64,000 bases of DNA from Coriaria nepalensis (taxonomy: Eukaryota > Streptophyta > Magnoliopsida > Cucurbitales > Coriariaceae). Shown here in pieces: positions 1,660 to 28,930 of the stretch. Below the pieces are notes generated by a model. That model was not told the origin of the DNA. It saw only the letters and a program-made list of their open reading frames with translations, and ran no database searches. The position numbers and the translations under genes are program-made. Location of the stretch: NCBI GenBank assembly GCA_027186245.1, contig CP114487.1, positions 3,725,501 through 3,789,500 of the forward strand. Direction: 5' to 3'. Within the stretch, counting starts at the first letter, position 1, and each line of letters opens with the position of its first letter.

Positions 1660-3400
1660 AGGCGGAAGTTATAACAGAAAGATTGGCCGAGAAAACGACA
1701 AGGTACTTTCTCTCCAAGTCTTCTAGATCATTACTCATTCTAGATTTGTTATAAACAGTGCTCTTCCTATAAGTTAGTAACTAATTGAGCCTCCATTGCT
1801 AGAATGATGTGGATGTGTTTTTTCATCTATAGTCATTAACCTTGTAATTTGCTCATCATGGCTTGTATTTAGTAGTACTTCATAGCTTCTTTTCTTTTTT
1901 TTTTCATATTATAATCATATATATATTATAAAAGTTATGCTTAAACATGTTATTATAACATGTGTCAAGTATTTTTCTCACTGTATCATGCCACGTGGCA
2001 AACTTTTCACGTCAAATGATGCAATGTGATAATTTTAGCCTTATCTAACATCAATAATTAGTTTGAACTTTTCAAATCCCATAATTATAGTAAATGTGTA
2101 AATTTATTAATTCAACTATAACAAGCACTATTTCGTTTCATTAAATATGAAACATTAATGTAAATACTTTGTATTATATCTATATATTAAATATGAAGCA
2201 TTATTATTGAATATGGAATGTCAAGCTTTGCAGCAAGAATTGATTTGAGTTTTTTTTTTTTTTTTTTGCTATGGTTATTAGTTTAAAAAAAAAAATATAG
2301 AAAGCCCATTAAATTGTTCGTTTTAAATGTATTGAAAATTTAATGATTCATTTTAGATAATAAAAAATTCAAAGATTAAAAACATTATATGAGAAATCGA
2401 AGGTCATGCTAATTAAAGTAAATCATATCTCAATAGGCATAAACAACAAATCAATTTTATTATTAAAATTAAGACTTGGATTTCTTAATTCATCTCTATA
2501 AACTTCAAGAAAAAGTATCATTTGCAGAGCAAAAGATAAAACAGAAAAATTAGTTCAAAAAAGAACCTAAAATAGTTAGTCATAACAATGTAGTAACGAC
2601 GAAATAGCATCCATGTATGAACATGTATTTTTCATTTGTGTGTCATTAGAGAGTGATTATGCATTATAAGGCATTTTTCATTTTTTCGGACTAGTAATTT
2701 TTTGTTTTTTTTTAGAGAAATTGTCAATGAGGACTTGGGCCTTAGGGCACATGTCAATTGTATTTCAATGTCAAATGATGGTAATAGCTAGAGTTGTCAT
2801 AATGGGATGAGTTTTCTGGTCCGACCCGTAATTTGGTAAAAACATTCAGCCCAAAGTTCAGCCCAACTTAGATAAAAGAGTCGTCGAGCTTAGACACATT
2901 TTCAAGTTCATTGGGCTGGCTCGACCTACCACTTACATCACCACCTTTATTTATGGTTTCATTATAAGGTCTGTTTTTTTCTCTTTAATGCCGAAGGGTT
3001 TTTTTGACGGAACTATGATGGTTGAGCCACAATATTTTAATTATCCATATATTATTTAATAATACGCAATGAAGTCTTTATTTAACCAAAAATATATTTA
3101 TTTATTTTTTTGTTTATTATTTATTCATTAAATTTATTTAATGAATATATGAGCTTTATATACTTTGATGATTACATTTTGATAATTTGTGATATTCTTA
3201 GTTATTTGGTTGTAACATTTGATGATACAATTTGATAATTTTATTTGGATTGTTTTTGGTTTCTTACATTTAAGATTATATTTTGCTAGTTTACTTTATG
3301 GGTCGAAGGCCCCATTAACCGACATGTGAGATCCCATTGATCAACATGTGAGATCTCGGTTGATGGGTCCTTCGACCCCTAAAGTTAGCAGTTATGAGTC
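1660..3400. other. AT-rich intergenic DNA
   Basis: Downstream flank of the TCX gene. It holds poly-T and poly-A runs and many stops in all frames. No gene, RNA or clear transposon domain was recognised. Confidence 0.6.
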
Positions 3401-3419
3401 TTATGATTTATGAGTATGC

Positions 3420-3990
3420 TACAGTTATGGGTCGAAGAGTCAAAGGGTATTTTACCTAAATTAGAATTGAAGGGTCGAAAGCCTCGAGGCACTAAGATGC
3501 ATAGACCGACGTCTCACATATCAGTTTGTAGTCGAAGAGCATCTCACATAAACTAGAGTCGAAGGGTTGAAGGATTAAAGGCTTCGAGGCCTTGAGATGC
3601 ACAGACCAATGTCTTAAATGTCAGTATATGGTCGAAGGGTCGAAAGGCTAAAGGCCTTGAGGCCTTGAGATGCATAGACCGAAATTTCACATGTCGGTCT
3701 ATGGTTGAATGGTCGAAGGGTCGAAGACCTCGAGACCCTGAGATGCACAAACCGACATCTCACATGTCGATCTCTAGTCGAAGGGTCAAAGGCCTCGAGG
3801 CCCTGAGATATACTGACCGACGTCTCACATGTCGGTCTATAGTCGCAGGGTCGAAGGGTCGAAGACCTTGAGGTTCTGAGATTCACAAACCAATGTCTCA
3901 CGTGTCGGTCTGTGGTTGAAGGGTCAATGGGTCGAAAGGCACCTTAGACCGACGTCTCACATAATTCGAGTCCATTTGAAGTATCAAAGG
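3420..3990. repeat. Tandem repeat, about 65-73 bp units with an internal hairpin
   Basis: At least five units start near 3594, 3666, 3739, 3804 and 3877, each with a GAGATGCACAGACCGAC-like motif; degraded copies lie near 3490 and 3945. Spacings are 72, 73, 65 and 73, the 8-bp difference being presence or absence of an extra GTCGAAGG-type block. Each unit carries an inverted repeat (AGACCGACg ... TGTCGGTCT, 9-nt arms around about 6 nt) and a near-palindromic CCTCGAGG motif. It is GC-richer than its surroundings. The short frames across it are by-products of the repetition. Confidence 0.8.
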
Positions 3991-3999
3991 GTCAAAGAC

Positions 4000-4840
4000 A
4001 TCTCACATTTGGTTATAATATACAAGGCTAACATTTAGGTCCAATGATGAAATATTCAACCTTTACGGTTCTAAGTCCAATCTTTAATCATTGGGTTTAT
4101 GGGTTATAATAGAAAGATTCGATTTTTAGGTCGAATGATGAAAAGTTCAACTATTAGATCAAATGATGAAAGGATCAACCTTTAGGGTTTGAAGTCTAAA
4201 TACATCCAAAAAATTCAGCGATTAGTATTATTTAGATTATTTTGAGGATGAAGAAAACAATCAATTATGAAAGTGGGAACTGTATAAAGGAATTAAATAT
4301 ATCTTAATCAAAATTTTTTATTTTCTTAATTACAAAGGAAGCTTTCCATTAATTATCTTGACTTTTCATTCCCTTTTTTTTTTTACAATGAATAATAACG
4401 TAAAAAATGTAACTCTCAGTATTAATTATTAATCTAAATCTAATACCACATATTAAATATCATATATATATATATATAGAATAATGACTAAGAATACGAG
4501 GAGTTAGTGAGCTAGTATCTAATTACTTCTTCTTTTTTTCCCAATTATAAAGCTGCAACTTTTTTCTCTTTCTCAACCACTATTTCAATAACTCAAATAT
4601 ACTTTGGTTGATATATAAATTCAGCGAATGCATACTTTCGTTATCTTTTTAATATATATAAAAAAAAATTATAAAGTGTGGGCATGTCAAAAGTAAGAGT
4701 ATTTCAAAAATTAAAGAAGGATAATTTAAATTGTAAAAAAATAAAGTATCGATAAATTAAAAGCTCTATAAATAGAAAGTGCATTAAAATGCTAATGAGT
4801 TACGATAGAATAAAGTGCAATAAAATAAAGTGTAATAAAA
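4000..4840. other. AT-rich intergenic DNA
   Basis: No coding similarity recognised. Contains an (AT)n tract near 4463-4478 and several A/T runs. It may hold the eroded 5' end of the Copia element that follows, but no matching 5' LTR was found. Confidence 0.5.
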
Positions 4841-12520: not shown

Positions 12521-13084
12521 ATCCGTATGGAAGAAATTCTACTAATTAGATTGAATGAATTTGATCATGCATTAATAACTTAACTCTCTATTCAATTTTA
12601 GGTGGAGGAACCACTTAAATATATTTTTGGAACCTAAGGAGTATTTTGGAGGTCTGTCACCATCGTATCGAAGTTAATATCAGTAATCAAGACTATCAAA
12701 GCTTCTCTATCTAAGAATCAGTTGAAGGTATTTAGGAAGACATACTTTGAAAACTTCCTGGATGTAGATCTTGAGCTCAATTTCTCTGATCAACTAGTTC
12801 GTTGCCTGTTATTAATTAGCCATGAAAATGGTCAAAAAACTCAATCTGACCAATAAACACCCATACCATTAATAGATTAATTCACTTCTAACTGATATTA
12901 TTTTCTAGTTATTCTCTCCAAAAAGAAATATATATATATATATAATCAAAAGCTAAAGGTCATATATGTAATTTCGATTTCTCCGACCGCCCATCCTTTT
13001 ATTTTATTTTATTTTATTTTATTTTTTCCCCTTAATCTATTAAGCAAGTATCAGCAACCAAAAGGCTTCTTCTAACGGCCACAA

Positions 13085-15976
13085 ATGGCCTCCTCCTCTC
13101 CCACCTCCATTACTATACAGCAGAACCTCCTTTCCTCCTCCGTCACTCTCTGTAAGTACCAATCATTACCTTTCCCTACTTTTTCAAACTTCCATTTCTT
13201 ATCCTTTTCTCCTATTTTCTCACGTCCCAAACACCCACCTCAGTTAAATTTGTCTAAACCTCTTGTTGTCAAAGCACAAGATAGTAGTCATACAGCACAC
13301 AAGTCTTTTTCTTCTTTAAGCAAAACCTCAAGTTTAGAACCTGTTCAAGAAAATACTACTGAGTTTGCTTCTTTAAGCTCTAGAAATGAAAGGGTAGTGG
13401 AAAATTCAATAAAAAACCTTAATATTTCAGTAATGGAGGAGAGTGATACTAGGAAGAATCCGGGTTTTAGGAAAAGGAGGAGAATTGATTCTGGTAATTC
13501 TTCTGTTGAGTCTAGAGAGAAGAATTCCGTATCAGATAAGATTTCACAGAGGGTAATTAGTAGTTCAATGGGAAAAGATTATGAAAATCATGTGAAAGAA
13601 TTCAAGACTAATGATCAAGTTCCGTTGAGATTAAAATTGGATATGTTCTCGAAATCAGGAGATGTTATGGGTGCCATTAGAATATACGATTGGGCCGAAA
13701 AAGAAGGTGTTAAAATGGAGCAATACCATTATAGTGTTATTCTCTATCTTTGCTCTTCTGCAGCTCTTGGTGCTGTCCAACCGGCTAAAAGTGGGATCGG
13801 GAATCGGACTTTGAACCTGTTCGAATCTCAAAAGAATCAAACAAGTACCGAGAAGAAAGATTTGAACTCAAACAGTCACAGTTTAGAGGAACAGAAAATT
13901 TTGGTAAGTGAGGATTTTAAGAAGTATGCGCTTCAAAGAGGATTTGAAATATATGAAAAGATGTGCTTTGATAAGATCCCCATGAATGAAGCAACCTTAA
14001 CTTCTCTAGCTCGAATGGCAATGTCAATTGGAAATGGTGAAATGGCGTTTGACATGGTAAAGAAAATGAAGCCATTGGGGATAAATCCCAAGTTAAGATC
14101 CTACGGGCCTGCTTTAATGGCTTTTTGCAATGATGGAGATGTGGATAAGGCCTTTTTGGTCGAAAAGCACATGTTAGAACATGGGGTCTACCCAGAAGAG
14201 CCTGAATTAGAAGCATTATTAAAAGTAAGCATAAAAGCTGGTAAACCTGAAAAGGTCTATTACTTGTTGCATAAACTAAGAACAAGTGTGAGGCAAGTCT
14301 CAAAATCTACGGCCAATTTGATTGTTACTTGGTTTACAAGCAAGGCTGCTTCTATGATTGGGAAAGAGAAATGGGATCAAGGGCGAGTAAAGAATGCTAT
14401 GGAGAATAGAGGTGGAGGTTGGCATGGGCTTGGATGGTTGGGAAAAGGGAAATGGAGTGTTTCATTATCAATTGTAGGAGAAGATGGTTTGTGTAAATGC
14501 TGCGGTGAGAAATTGGTTACAATCGATCTTGATCCTATAGAAACCGAGAATTTCGCGAAATCCGTTGCTAGTATAGCCGCAAAGAGGGAGAAAAACTCGA
14601 GCTTTCAGAAATTTCAAGTATGATTATTCTTGTTGTTATTCATGATTTTTATCTTAAAAGAATATGCATTAATTTACTTCAAATTGCAGAAATGGCTTGA
14701 TTATTATGGACCTGTCGAAGTGGTGATTGATGCAGCTAATGTTGGTCTTTACAGCCAGAGGAAATTCATACCAGCCAAGGCAAGGTTTTTTTTTTTGAAG
14801 TATGATTATTGCAATGTTCATTGACTCTTGCTATGTTTTAATTTCTGGGGTGGAATCAAAATTAGGTCAATTTAGTTGTAAACGGAATACGGCAAAAACT
14901 ACCTTCAAGGAAGTGGCCTCTAATCGTGCTGCATAACAAGCGAATAACCGGGCGAAAAATGGAGGCACCCGTAAATAGGGCCTTTATTGAGAAATGGAAA
15001 AATGCGGATGCACTCTATGCAACACCTACTGGATCAAATGACGATTGGTGAGTATTATTCTAACCTACATTTCTTAACTTACATATAGAAAAATAGAAAG
15101 AAAAAAAAATTATATATATATCTAGCTATGGCCAGGCCAAGAATAAAATGTGTTTCAGCCTTCAGGTACTGGTTATATGCAGCCATTAAGTTCAAGTGCT
15201 TGATTGTAACAAACGATGAGATGAGAGACCATACGTTTCAACTTCTCGGAAACGATTTCTTCCCCAAATGGAAAGAAAGGCACCAAGTGAGTGAAAAAGG
15301 GATGATGATAGAAGACAAATGATAGCTTGTTGCAAATGTTTTCAACTAAGTTAAGGTTTATGTTTTCTTGTCATTTTGAAGGTTAGGTTCAGTTTCTCTG
15401 ATTCTGGTCCCCTTTTTCACATGCCTCCTCCTTGTTCGGTTGTGATTCAGGTCGAAATCATTACTTATTATATAATACTGCTCCCTGCCTTCTTTCTTCT
15501 GCTAATATTTTTTTGGGACAAATTATTACTCAGGAATCGGAAAAAGGGCATTGGCATATTCCCATTATTTTGGAGAATAGTTATGAATCTGAAAGAGAAT
15601 GGTTATGCATAACACGGCCTAGCTCAAAAATAGCAAGGCCCGAAGGTGACCATGATTCTATTTCTCAATCATTTTGGAAAAGATCTTGATACTCATTGAT
15701 GTTTATGAAGTTTGTGTTTGTATTTGAACAGATCGAAAATCTCTTCTCCTGAAAGAAGGAAATGTGAATAATGATTCAGCTGATAAACATAGACATGGGA
15801 CATTATTGGATCATAGTAAAAGTGAAACTACTACTAGGAATTCTCCTCAGAAAAACTATAGGAATCTCAAGAAGATTCTTTCGGAATCTGTGTTCTCAAA
15901 AGATTATTGCACATTGTTTTCGGAGATTGAGGAGGCAGAGAAGCTTGGAGGATGTACTATTGACTTTCAGATATAA
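13085..15976 (+). CDS. PRORP1: PRORP1: protein-only RNase P, organellar type
   Basis: Seven exons: 13085-14617, 14690-14779, 14866-15047, 15166-15286, 15382-15450, 15534-15645 and 15732-15976 (783 codons plus stop). The enzyme removes 5' leaders from pre-tRNAs. Residues 1 to about 60 look like a Ser/Thr-rich transit peptide; PPR helices span about 170-430; zinc-site cysteines are C470 and C473, with H673 and C690 downstream; the NYN metallonuclease domain is about 512-690. The catalytic aspartates D525, D600, D601 and D619 keep exactly the spacing of Arabidopsis PRORP1 D399, D474, D475 and D493. Intron 2 (14780-14865) has a GC donor. The protein is longer than Arabidopsis PRORP1 (572 aa), with a long linker before the PPRs and about 85 extra C-terminal residues. 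Reading through the exon 6 donor would instead stop at 15687-15689 and give a more usual C-terminus. Confidence 0.93.
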
Positions 15977-19840: not shown

Positions 19841-21850
19841 ATAGTCATTTTTCAAATATAAATGAGGATGAGGTCGATCTCGACGACGAAATAACAACTT
19901 CACTAAGTACAGCTGCTTCTACAAAACAAAAGAAGACAACATCAACAATTTGACTTTATTTTGACGAGTTGTACAACCCAGATGAATACGGGAAAATTAA
20001 AAAATATGTTGTATGTAAGGAATGCAAAAAGACTTTAACTGCTATCGGGACTGATATAACTACTCACTTAAAACGTCATAAAGATAAATGCATGTCTGAT
20101 CCCACAACCGGTATAGGTACATCTCAAACTTAATAAAATTTTCAACCTGATGATTTAGTCTCTACGTAGTCATATAACAAAATGAGAGCTAGAGATAACC
20201 TTGCTAAGTTGATTCCTTATTTTGATTTGCTTATTAGTTTCGCTGACTCTAAATATTATAAAAACTTTATTCGAGACTCATATTGTTCTTTCTATAAGAG
20301 AGTAAGTATAAATACAACTAGAAGTGATATAGAAATATGTTTTTTTAAAAATAACGTGATGCATTAAAATTAGAATTAGGTTCACTTCATGTTAGTATTG
20401 CATTAATATACAATATTTAGAGTGCACGGTCTAAACAAGATTATTTATCTATAGTTAGTCATTATTTAGATGTTGAATGGTATATGAAAAAAAATTATAG
20501 GTTTTAAAGTTATTGAAACTCAATATAATGTTGAAAATATTTGTAACATTATTATGAAAGTTTTGGATGAGTTTGATATAAAATAAAATTTAATGTTGAA
20601 TCAAATTAGATAATGTTTCTACAAATACGAAGGCAATATCTTTTTTTAATGATCAGCTTAGTGGGAAAAATTGTGGAATATTTTTATATCAACGGTGTGT
20701 TTGTCACATAATAAACCTCATTGTTAAAGTAGGTATGAAATTGGTAGCGAATGAAATTACAAATATTCGAGATGCATTTGCTTTTATAATTATCTTTAAT
20801 CCTCATATGCATTTAGACAATTATGTAAGAACGCAGGTACGCAATCTTGGAAGTTTGCACTTAATATGAACATAAAATGAAATTCTATTTATATAATATT
20901 ACAACAAATTATTCCATATAAAGATGAGATTACTATGTTCTTACATATAAAACAAATTAATCCTCATACTGCGTGAAAATGATTAGGACACTATTACAAA
21001 AATTTAAGAAATTTCTAAAACTTTTTTACAAGTCTACTATGATTTTATCTAGTATTTATTATATAATTTCATCATTAGTTATTACACAATTTGTTGATAT
21101 TATTAAGATATTTATTGCTTATGATGATAATATTATTTTTAAACCTATTATAGAAAAAGTGAATATAAAATCCTTAAAATATTGAAAAGAAATTCCACTT
21201 TTATATTATTTGGAGTTCATTAGATCCTGAACTTAAGTACAACGGTAAGGTAGTTTCTTTTATAGGAAGAGAATTAGATATTTTCTTATGATGAACTAAT
21301 TGCTAATGCAAATATAAAATTCCATAAATGAATGACCAATATAGCAAGTTGCGTTTCTTATAATGAATGATTCGTTTCTAACTAATCATTTCTTATGTTA
21401 TTTATGAAAATAAGTATAGCGACTTGCGACCTGCGACTTCGATGATCCAATCAACAAAATGGATGACCAAAAAAAGCGATATAGAATATTTACAACAAAA
21501 AGAATAGTTCTTCAAGTAGTGGTATTCATAATAAGGAGAGTTTTAGAAGTACTTTGAATCCAAGATGATGAGGATGAGGATGAAAATGACTTTAATATCT
21601 TGTAATGGTGGAAGTATAATTTAGAAAAGTTTCCTATATTAGCTTAACTCACACATGACGTGTTGGCCATCACCCTCGTGTTAATAATGTCTTCATAATC
21701 AACATTTAACATATGTGAGAGAATCATTTATGATAGAAGAGCTAAATTAATGTCTGAAATGGTTGAGATACTATCGTGCATCAGAGATTGAGAGTGTGCA
21801 GATTAGCAAAACCAACATCAAATAACAGATAAAAAAAGAAATGTACGAAA
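19840..21850 (+). mobile_element. Degenerate hAT-family transposon
   Basis: A broken BED zinc finger, VVCKECKKTLTAIGTDITTHLKRHKDKC (about 20008-20093), is followed by hAT-like sequence MRARDNLAKLIPYFDLLISFADSKYYKNFI (20182-20367). More fragments follow (20973-21185), then WWKYNLEKFPILA, a stop, and LTHDVLAI, the hAT C-terminal dimerisation motif (about 21606-21670), ending in RAKLMSEMVEILSCIRDWE (about 21737-21793). Stops and shifts interrupt every part. Terminal inverted repeats and target duplications were not resolved. Confidence 0.75.
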
Positions 21851-23040
21851 CATTTAGTAATTTATATCTCGAAACTGAATATGAAGCTCTTAATTATGGG
21901 GTAGGAAGTAGTTTAACTCCCCATTAGAAATTATAAATTATGATGTAATTTTAATAATGTATTTTTTTTCCTTATTTTTAAGGTTTTATTATAGTTTCTA
22001 TTTTTTCCTCTTTAAGGCCATGATGTTTTTTCTTAATGAAACTATCTATCATTACAAATCACAATAAAGTTATTTTTTTGGCTAACTCTTTATTAATAAT
22101 ATTCTAAATTATAAGTTTTCAAAATAACAAAATTAGAAAAAGAAATCACAACTCACAAAGTATACAAATTCAAAAGAAACTATAATAAAATTATAAATCT
22201 TTAAAATATTTATTTCACCATTTAATTTAATTCTCCATATTTATTACCTAACCGTATCCCTCTTTCTTCTTTCAGTTATTTTCTCTTTACCTAATACTCT
22301 CATTTATTCTCTTATAAATACTACTCTCCCCTCCCTCTCAAGTCTTACCACTTAATTTAATTCATCCCACAAGACTACAATAATAACTTCATTTAGCTTT
22401 TCTTTAGATAGTCATATATATTTATTTACTTCTTATATTTAATATGTTTATTATTTAGTGTTCTAACTTATTACATTTAGAGATGGTAAAATGGATTGGG
22501 CTGACATAAACACGACAAAATATGATACGAGCATAAGATATAATACTAATTTTTTTTAATAATTTTAATTATTATTAATAATAATTTTTTATTTATTAAA
22601 TAATAATTATTAAGAACAATTAATTATATACATATAAATTAAATTCTAAAACAATAAATTTAAATTTAAGAATAAAATTCCCAATTACTAAAAAATAAAT
22701 TTAACTTCTAATAATTTTTATTCATTATTATTATTATTATTATTATTTCATACTTGTTAATTAGCAACATACTTTTGGGTGTGACAGGAACCAATCTATA
22801 CCGAACATGATATAACACGAATATGCCATACCCAATCGCCGTGCCGTACTGATCGCGAACTCTCCTAGTACCGGTGAATAATTCTAAGCTTCAGAACATT
22901 TTCCCCCACAGGCCACAGCTTTCGTCCAAATAGGAAAATTTAAATTAAAATCAAATTATCAATATATATATATTTATATAATAGTTTTCTTAAACACTCC
23001 CATCCAACCGTTGCTTCCTGATTCATCGGACGGCTGATCG
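21850..23040. other. AT-rich intergenic DNA with an (ATT)n tract
   Basis: No coding content recognised. Contains a (TTA/ATT)n microsatellite at about 22726-22748 and an (AT)n stretch near 22962-22981. Its right part is the upstream region of the snoRNA cluster. Confidence 0.5.
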
Positions 23041-23062
23041 AATGTTCCCTCATCAATCAGAA

Positions 23063-23092
23063 AAACCCTAACTCCTTCACGCGTCTTTATAA
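23063..23092 (+). promoter_or_regulatory. Telo-box and TATA element upstream of the snoRNA cluster
   Basis: A perfect telo-box AAACCCTAA (23063-23071) lies 14 bp before a TATA-like TTTATAA (23086-23092). A second, reversed telo-like AGGGTTT is at 23163-23169. Telo-boxes are typical of plant genes for ribosomal proteins, translation factors and snoRNA clusters (family knowledge). The first snoRNA begins about 180 bp downstream, a plausible distance for a Pol II polycistronic snoRNA precursor. No Site II (TGGGCY) motif was found nearby. Confidence 0.55.
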
Positions 23093-23262
23093 GTAACAAA
23101 ATCTCGACTCTTACGGTCGATGTAGGCACCGTTCGCTCTCGATCGGCTTGCACTCCATGTCTAGGGTTTGCTAATTCCCTGTATTCGTCTTCTTCTATCT
23201 TCGTCCAATTTTGTTAGATCTTCTCTCCGATTATTCTTTAATTACGATTATGCGATGGGAAT

Positions 23263-23345
23263 GAAGGACAGTGACGATTATATCTATAAGGTCTCGTTCG
23301 TCGTAACCGGCTTTCTGTAAGGCCTTGACGACCATCCTGATATAT
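23263..23345 (+). ncRNA. Candidate box C/D snoRNA, U30 (SNORD30) type, 18S target
   Basis: Box C-like GTGACGA at 23271-23277 (one change from RTGATGA) and box D CTGA at 23337-23340. The 13-nt segment 23289-23301 (AGGTCTCGTTCGT) is exactly complementary to the conserved 18S rRNA sequence ACGAACGAGACCT. If the degenerate CGTA at 23302-23305 is box D', the +5 rule picks the same adenosine as human U30 (18S A1383), and box and guide spacing parallels human U30. Weak points: the imperfect box C, a poor D' and no clear terminal stem. Confidence 0.55.
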
Positions 23346-23473
23346 CACCACCCATATTCCGAGTCCTTATTCTAATTTTTTATTTTTCGTCGAAATTGGT
23401 TTGATCCCTCTGATTGTTCTCATCCTTCTCTTGATTCCGTGATCATAATTTTTTATTTTTTTTTAAAAATAGT

Positions 23474-23556
23474 GGCCGATGATTAAATTTTATTATAAAG
23501 ACAAGCATATGTCTGAACTAATCTGTGTAGAACAATCTAATCTTCTCTATGAGGCC
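23474..23556 (+). ncRNA. U27: Box C/D snoRNA U27 (SNORD27/snR74 family), guides 18S A28
   Basis: Terminal stem GGCC (23474-23477) / GGCC (23553-23556), overlapping a degenerate box C whose core is GATGA (23478-23482). Box D' CTGA is at 23513-23516. The 13-nt guide 23499-23511 (AGACAAGCATATG) is exactly complementary to the 5' end of 18S rRNA, CATATGCTTGTCT. Counting five nucleotides from box D' selects 18S A28, the site of yeast snR74 and vertebrate U27. GACAAGCATATG followed at once by CTGAACT is also how vertebrate U27 reads. Box D appears as ATGA (23549-23552), a variant. No ORF is present. Confidence 0.85.
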
Positions 23557-23653
23557 GATAAAAAGTTACCTGCCGTTTGTTTTCCAGAAAAATTTTCAAT
23601 CCTCGTGTTATGACTGTCTTCATTTTGTACTAGTGTTTGGATAATGAGAAAAA

Positions 23654-23744
23654 TAAGTAGTCTGTGATGAAGTAAGAGTGATATTCGTACTGTATGAGAA
23701 TTCATGATTACAGTTATTCTCTACTGCCTTCCTTCTGAGCCTTA
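23654..23744 (+). ncRNA. Box C/D snoRNA guiding the 18S adenosine of the yeast snR52 / human U83 site
   Basis: Perfect box C GTGATGA (23664-23670) and box D CTGA (23735-23738). The 11 nt directly before box D (23724-23734, CTGCCTTCCTT) are complementary to 18S AAGGAAGGCAG, with further pairs beyond one mismatch. The +5 rule selects the A in AAGGA, equivalent to yeast A420 and human A468, which lies 16 nt before the other methylated A in that region, as known. The terminal stem is weak (TAAG 23654-23657 / CTTA 23741-23744). I do not know the plant name of this guide. Confidence 0.8.
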
Positions 23745-23814
23745 ACTTTGTCTTTTCTTATTATCTTTATCGTCTATATCTGCGTATGTTTCTGAGATTT
23801 GCAGTTTCTTTAAT

Positions 23815-23905
23815 GGGTCAAGGGATGATTAAAATGCGCATAGTTCAGCTGATTACATCGTGATTAGTAACTTTTGCATAGTCTTTCGCTCCTATCTGAT
23901 GACCC
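23815..23905 (+). ncRNA. U80: Box C/D snoRNA U80 (SNORD80/snR60 family), two 25S targets
   Basis: Perfect 6-bp terminal stem GGGTCA (23815-23820) / TGACCC (23900-23905). Box C GGGATGA (23822-23828), D' CTGA (23849-23852), C'-like TGATTA (23861-23866), box D CTGA (23896-23899). The D' guide 23838-23847 pairs with 25S TGAACTATGC; the D guide 23879-23895 pairs over 17 nt, with one G-U, with 25S ATAGGGGCGAAAGACTA. The +5 rule gives an A and a G that are 91 nt apart in 25S as I recall it, the spacing of yeast A817/G908 (snR60) and human A1521/G1612 (U80). Two matching guides plus the stem make this the firmest call of the cluster. Confidence 0.92.
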
Positions 23906-24650
23906 AATTTTTTTTGTCCGGTGAAATTATGTTATGATTTTGTTTTTTAAAGAATTTGATGATTTGTCTTGTGTGATTTTCTTAATTACAAACCTATAAG
24001 AATCTAAACTTATAGCCAACTTGATATCAAACTTGTGTAACTCCAAAATTCATCTAGCATAATTAATAACAAGAAAAGCTGTTCAATCAAAAATTTTTGA
24101 GCAGCCATCATACAACAAACAAAAAGTAACTATGCATTGGACTCAAGTGCATTCTGAGTTGGTCATTCTGAATAAGTTGCTATACGGGTTGTATCTTGAC
24201 TTGGCAGGAGCTTTAACTATTATAGGGATAATGCATTCATTGGTCCGAGGTAAATGGCTCAGTACCCGAATCACTGATGAAGTTTTAGAATCTCCTTTCC
24301 ACATTTTCGGTTATTCGCGTTTCCAGCATCAGTTGTCTTTGATCATTGATAGCTTAACCTGCAGTGGGTAAAGCAATTTCCATCTTTGTGAAGATCTATC
24401 AAGCTCATAAAAGGCTTACTGGATGTTAAATTGGAATGATAGCACTTGGATTCCACTCTCTTTATTGTTTTTCTACCAAGTCTAGTTTTGTTTTCTACAT
24501 ACTTCCGGAAAAGGTCACAAATACAGAGCTGCAGACATCGGTTGTGAGCGATTGGATAATCAAACCTTGCACTAACAAGGTAATGCAAGCTACTGAAATC
24601 TTGAATGACATGTATTGGGTGAGTTCATGTAGTCGTCAATAAAGCCTCCA
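23906..24650. other. Non-coding region after the snoRNA cluster
   Basis: T-rich sequence with no further box C/D pair that I can support. The open frames at 24132-24371 and 24436-24642 do not resemble known proteins. Confidence 0.45.
24535..24645 (+). repeat. Direct repeat, copy 1 (partner at 25430-25545)
   Basis: About 110 bp with landmarks GACATCGGTT, GCGATTGGAT, ACAAGGTAATGCAAGCTACTGAA, GACATGTATTGGGTGAGTTCATGTAGTCGTCAATAAAG. It matches 25430-25545 closely, apart from small differences and a 4-bp insertion. The two copies bracket the receptor-kinase pseudogene. Confidence 0.8.
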
Positions 24651-24654
24651 TTTG

Positions 24655-25330
24655 CCCAGACCGAGTACTTTCTGTAAAGAAGTATGTACTTACTGGATAT
24701 GTACATCATGGAGCGGTCACCGAATCAGACATGAGAATCTCATTAAAAATTGAAGATTTTGGCTTAAAGAAGACTTATGAAGTACATACCAAATTGAATC
24801 AATCCTCCATGATGTGTTCCATGAATTGAATTCAAAACTGATTTTAGATTGGCAATGTTTGGTTTAAGATGGTGCTTGGAACTACACATGGATTGGTGAT
24901 GCAAAATGTTTTCTTAGATTGTGATCCTGATTCCTGCCATTCTGAACAGAGACATCAAACATCAGAGTATTCTTAGATTCTGAGATGGAGCCTCCTGTTG
25001 CTAATTTTGGTGTAGCAAAGTTAGATTATTCTTCTACTTCGCCTCAATCATTTTTGGTTGTTTGTTCATTTGGCTACATTGCACCAGGTAATTCATTTTC
25101 TCTCAAGCTACATCGCGGGTGCATTAGTTTTTCAAAATTGGAGAAACTGACGAGTGAAACATTGTCACAAGGAATAACTTGGGGAATTGGACATCATGGA
25201 CCAAGTTGGTAATATTATTTGTTGGCTTTGAGTTTGACAAGGAACCAAGCAGTAGACCTACAATGAGAGATGATATACAATTGTATGACGGCGCATGTGA
25301 TATACCAAGTAGTTCGTAAACCCATTAAGT
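24655..25330 (+). pseudogene. LRR receptor-like kinase fragment, PEPR-like
   Basis: Frames broken by stops and shifts read, in kinase order: VKKYVLTGYVHHGAVTESDMR (near 24675-24740), GHRIRHENLIK / IEDFWLK (about 24715-24775), SILHDVFHELNSKLILDWQ (about 24800-24855), a trace of RDIK (about 24950), LDSEMEPPVANFGVAKL (24975-25025), SFLVVCSFGYIAPG (about 25045-25090) and RPTMRD (about 25256-25275). Order and wording are close to the PEPR1/PEPR2 class. The DFG motif reads NFG and much of the middle is missing. Clearly dead. Confidence 0.65.
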
Positions 25331-25429: not shown

Positions 25430-25545
25430 AGACATTGGTTCTGAGGGATTGGATCATCAACCTTGCATTAACAAGGTAATGCAAGCTACTGAATACTTGA
25501 ATGACAGACATGTATTGGGTGAGTTCATGTAGTCGTCAATAAAGC
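25430..25545 (+). repeat. Direct repeat, copy 2 (partner at 24535-24645)
   Basis: Second copy of the roughly 110-bp segment. It includes GACAGACATG where copy 1 has GACATG. It lies between the kinase pseudogene and the 3' end of the signal peptidase gene. Confidence 0.8.
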
Positions 25546-25692: not shown

Positions 25693-27895
<2,203 letters not shown>

Positions 27896-27939
27896 TTTCT
27901 TCTTTTTAACAGAAAAAAACAGAATTGCACATTTCATCT

Positions 27940-28930
27940 CTTCTTATCGAGAGGAAGTTGCACATTTGCAATGCCCAATTCGAATGCTCAAGTGGGGCCC
28001 ACAACCGCTGTTTTTTCAAGGACCTGTTGTCTGTGTTTTCGACTATTTGGGGGGTTAAATTTATATTAATCGCAAAAAGCATTTGTGCTGGTGGTTGTGG
28101 TGGTGGGGGAATTCAGGTGGCGGTATAGCCGGTGGCAGCAGGGCGCTGGTGGTGGCGGCATCAAGTATAGATTTGGTACGCTGCAGCATATGCTCAAGAG
28201 GGCGCGGCGCTGAGAACAAGTAGATTTGGATAGACTTTGGTCCTTTTTTGGGATATCTTTTCCTCATTATGTACATAAGCTTTTAACGCTAGATCGTGTT
28301 GTGCAATGGAAACAGAACGAACACAAATCATAGGACGGGGTCTTTCTGGTGGATTAAACTTTAAGTTCTGCCTTCTATACAAGATACTAATTACTACACA
28401 TCGATAAAAAATGTGTAAGTTATGAACAAGTTAGGGTCACATTTGACATTTGACAATCTTTCTTTATATTCTGAGATTCTCTATCAATTTCCTGGATCAA
28501 ATATTTATCACATGTAATCTAAAGACAAAAGATACAAATAATATAAAAACAATACATCATTCCTCTAGGGAAGAGCCAAGAAGATTAGACCTACTGTGTC
28601 GGGAGGAGTTGCATCCTGTCTCTTCCATGGTATTGAGGTATCAGTGTCAATACTTCATAGAGACTCTCTCAAGCCTTTTTCCTTATGGCAAGAAACGACT
28701 AACCCACAAATGACGGGCTGAAAATAACAGGAGATTCGCTCCTCGAAACAACTTGGCTACACAAAATCCCCTAGTATCAACAAAGAATTGTCCAAGTCGA
28801 GCTGCGAACTGGTCTTAGTCAAGCAATCTATTTCCAAGAACTAACAAACATAAGCTCTATACCAAATCCAAAATTTATGTTAGTTCCTCCATGCTATGTT
28901 AAAATGGCCAAACCAGCTCAACCTAAATGT
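27940..28930. other. Region between the TilS 3' end and the signal peptidase start
   Basis: Both neighbours are on the minus strand, so this holds the TilS 3' UTR (right) and the signal peptidase promoter (left). A Gly/Val-type GGTGGTGG low-complexity stretch lies at about 28088-28165. No separate gene recognised. Confidence 0.5.

Follow-up and report, generated by a model that had tools for sequence, protein, structure and literature searches.

What does the plus strand encode between 23264 and 23906 of a 64,000-nucleotide (nt) stretch of Coriaria nepalensis DNA (hereafter the window; GenBank assembly GCA_027186245.1, contig CP114487.1, positions 3,725,501 to 3,789,500), where ordinary gene calling would leave a blank? 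The locus is most likely, and with high confidence, a plant box C/D small nucleolar RNA (snoRNA) cluster, predicted from its sequence to hold four genes in one transcription unit. An earlier note had proposed four plus-strand box C/D candidates here, and these are recovered as a tandem of three Rfam-matched genes and one SNORD27-like gene (Table 1). The observation of a four-snoRNA row is confirmed and the interpretation given with it is supported; the cluster is genuine but ordinary, of a kind already known.

Rfam families of the tandem genes

Three of the genes score above the gathering cut-offs of their Rfam families, with matches over the full models: RF00330 (snoZ43; 89.4 bits, cut-off 43), RF00309 (snosnR60_Z15, U80; 72.3 bits, cut-off 41) and RF01179 (snoU83; 53.7 bits, cut-off 50). 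Their E-values in the 64-kb search are 1.4e-18, 1.3e-10 and 2.3e-06. The fourth match, to RF00086 (SNORD27), also spans the full model length and sits between two of the above-cut-off genes; it scores 36.6 bits, where 52 would be needed to reach the cut-off. A chance resemblance within AT-rich intergenic DNA would be an extremely improbable source of such E-values in tandem on one strand, even though short guides and kink-turn frames by themselves are equally frequent in shuffled sequence.

Each gene resembles its family with certain discrepancies. snoZ43 shares the guides and the terminal stem of its model, while its D box reads CCGA in place of the consensus CuGA. U80 shares both guides to 25S ribosomal RNA (rRNA) and differs in the C box (GGGAUGA; model core UGAUGA). 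U83 shares the D-box guide, which together with the D box forms a string that occurs once in the window and in 0 of 100 shuffles; the target of this guide in 18S rRNA, AAGGAAGGCAG, is what we take to be the snR52/U83 site. In the U27-like gene, the guide core and the GACAAGCAUAUGUCUGAA stretch are identical to the SNORD27 model; the gene departs from it in its box pair (C, AUGAUUA; D, AUGA) and in longer spacing, both from C box to guide and in the second half. Its 12-nt guide string is found once in the window and in 0 of 100 shuffles, and the target presumably lies close to the 5´ end of 18S. The gene is named SNORD27-like, the guide and site being the same, because its score falls under the RF00086 cut-off.

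Table 1. Positions of the predicted cluster genes, their guides and the upstream elements within the window.
Feature	Position	Strand	Details
Telo-box AAACCCTAA	23063-23071	+	putative promoter element
TATA-like element TTTATAAG	23086-23093	+	read from sequence
Telo motif AAACCCTA	23162-23169	-	reverse orientation
snoZ43	23264-23368	+	C box GTGACGA 23271-23277; D box CCGA 23359-23362; terminal stem 6 bp; kink-turn frame
Segment inside snoZ43	23289-23301	+	D´ position placed by analogy with U30
Segment inside snoZ43	23343-23356	+	
U27 (SNORD27-like)	23473-23557	+	C box ATGATTA 23479-23485; D box ATGA 23549-23552; terminal stem 5 bp (1 GU); kink-turn frame
U27 guide AGACAAGCATATG	23499-23511	+	upstream of D´ CTGA 23513-23516
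U83	23659-23742	+	C box GTGATGA 23664-23670; D box CTGA 23735-23738; mismatch within terminal stem
U83 guide CTGCCTTCCTT	23724-23734	+	upstream of D box
U80 (snosnR60_Z15 family)	23814-23906	+	kink-turn frame
U80 D´ guide	23838-23847	+	upstream of D´ CTGA 23849-23852; 10 bp to 25S TGAACTATGC; box+5 = A
U80 D guide	23879-23895	+	upstream of D; 17 bp (1 GU) to 25S ATAGGGGCGAAAGACTA; box+5 = G

Boxes, guides and points against the cluster

A kink-turn descriptor widened to accept C-box GAYKA and D-box [AC][CT]GA joins the C and D boxes by a terminal stem in three of the four genes. These three are all the plus-strand kink-turn frames of the whole window. U83 is absent from the closed frames in this search of the window, and it is the only gene with strict consensus boxes at both C and D. 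Complementarity to rRNA of at least 10 nt lies directly upstream of D or D´, and four guides keep the box+5 spacing when compared with rRNA pieces; both U80 guides to 25S that the earlier note had described were found with this spacing.

Several results weigh against the cluster assignment. SNORD27 membership is not supported by score, and U83 exceeds its cut-off by just 3.7 bits with a terminal stem that is not clean. The U80 D´ guide has a second pairing (13 bp with 3 GU) elsewhere in 18S, and folding energy is conspicuous for U80 only. The rRNA used for guide pairing was taken from other eukaryotes. Kink-turn frames are not in excess window-wide (there are 4, and 20 shuffles average 3.8), nor are plus-strand guide-like sites, of which 17 score at least 10 (9-23 in five shuffles) and 3 score at least 12 (1-3 in five shuffles). 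Finally, no Site II element (TGGGCY) was observed within 22700-24200.

Upstream elements and coding context

Plants commonly have polycistronic snoRNA clusters driven by telo-box promoters; the telo-box often occurs together with Site II, and several copies of a cluster are often present. The locus resembles the clusters of Arabidopsis and rice in its tandem C/D genes, small spacing and upstream telo-box, and is unlike them in having no Site II element within 22700-24200. The telo-box and TATA-like element announced earlier were both located. The telo motif is not unique to the locus because AAAACCCTAA is present three times in the window (two places besides the cluster), against 0.24 expected; TATA-like strings are numerous in this AT-rich window, TTTATAAG being one among many.

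Alternatively, the four snoRNAs could be intronic, hosted by a gene with one intron or several for them, and not form their own transcription unit. Intronic snoRNA clusters exist in plants, and short ORFs (open reading frames) lie downstream at 24063-25319. Conversely, the telo-box and TATA-like element lie directly upstream, and neither three ORFs through the cluster nor four downstream have a Pfam match, which leaves the host-gene explanation improbable. Seven listed ORFs, of 45-79 codons, overlap the cluster, the three searched in Pfam being among them. By impression only, the plus-strand ORFs at 24063-25319 resemble remnants of a receptor-kinase gene or a retroelement. A 42-nt direct repeat (93% identical; 24563-24604 and 25459-25500, about 900 bases apart) is also located just downstream of the cluster.

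Protein matches in the window include PRORP-type PPR, PP-loop and Ovate; a minus-strand S26 signal peptidase gene matches at 27329-27943 and 26341-26520, the latter exactly at the cut-off. Such neighbours point to the nuclear genome of a plant. At 13076-14623, a gene of PRORP (protein-only RNase P) type has a PPR_long match of 228.5 bits, and the PRORP domain in its first exon-like ORF scores 30.1 bits, below the cut-off of 39.1. Short plus-strand ORFs at 19954-21185 resemble hAT transposase remnants by impression; of two searched in Pfam, one has two sub-cut-off matches to other families and one has none. Outside the window, NZ_QBKZ01000001.1 (filed under the bacterium Mangrovicoccus ximenensis) carries a eukaryotic 25S rRNA piece on the minus strand at about 3100-3540 (LSU_rRNA_eukarya, 419.9 bits), likely a contamination or misassembly, and the end of IMGVR_UViG_3300029287_000002 (filed as viral; 3632-4543) is eukaryotic 18S rRNA with an apparent AT-rich insert.

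Knowledge of snoRNA biology is unchanged by the cluster. The U27-like gene provides an example that misses its Rfam cut-off despite an intact guide and kink-turn frame. The products of the four genes would steer chemical marking of rRNA, and an otherwise blank stretch gains four genes expected to act in ribosome maturation.
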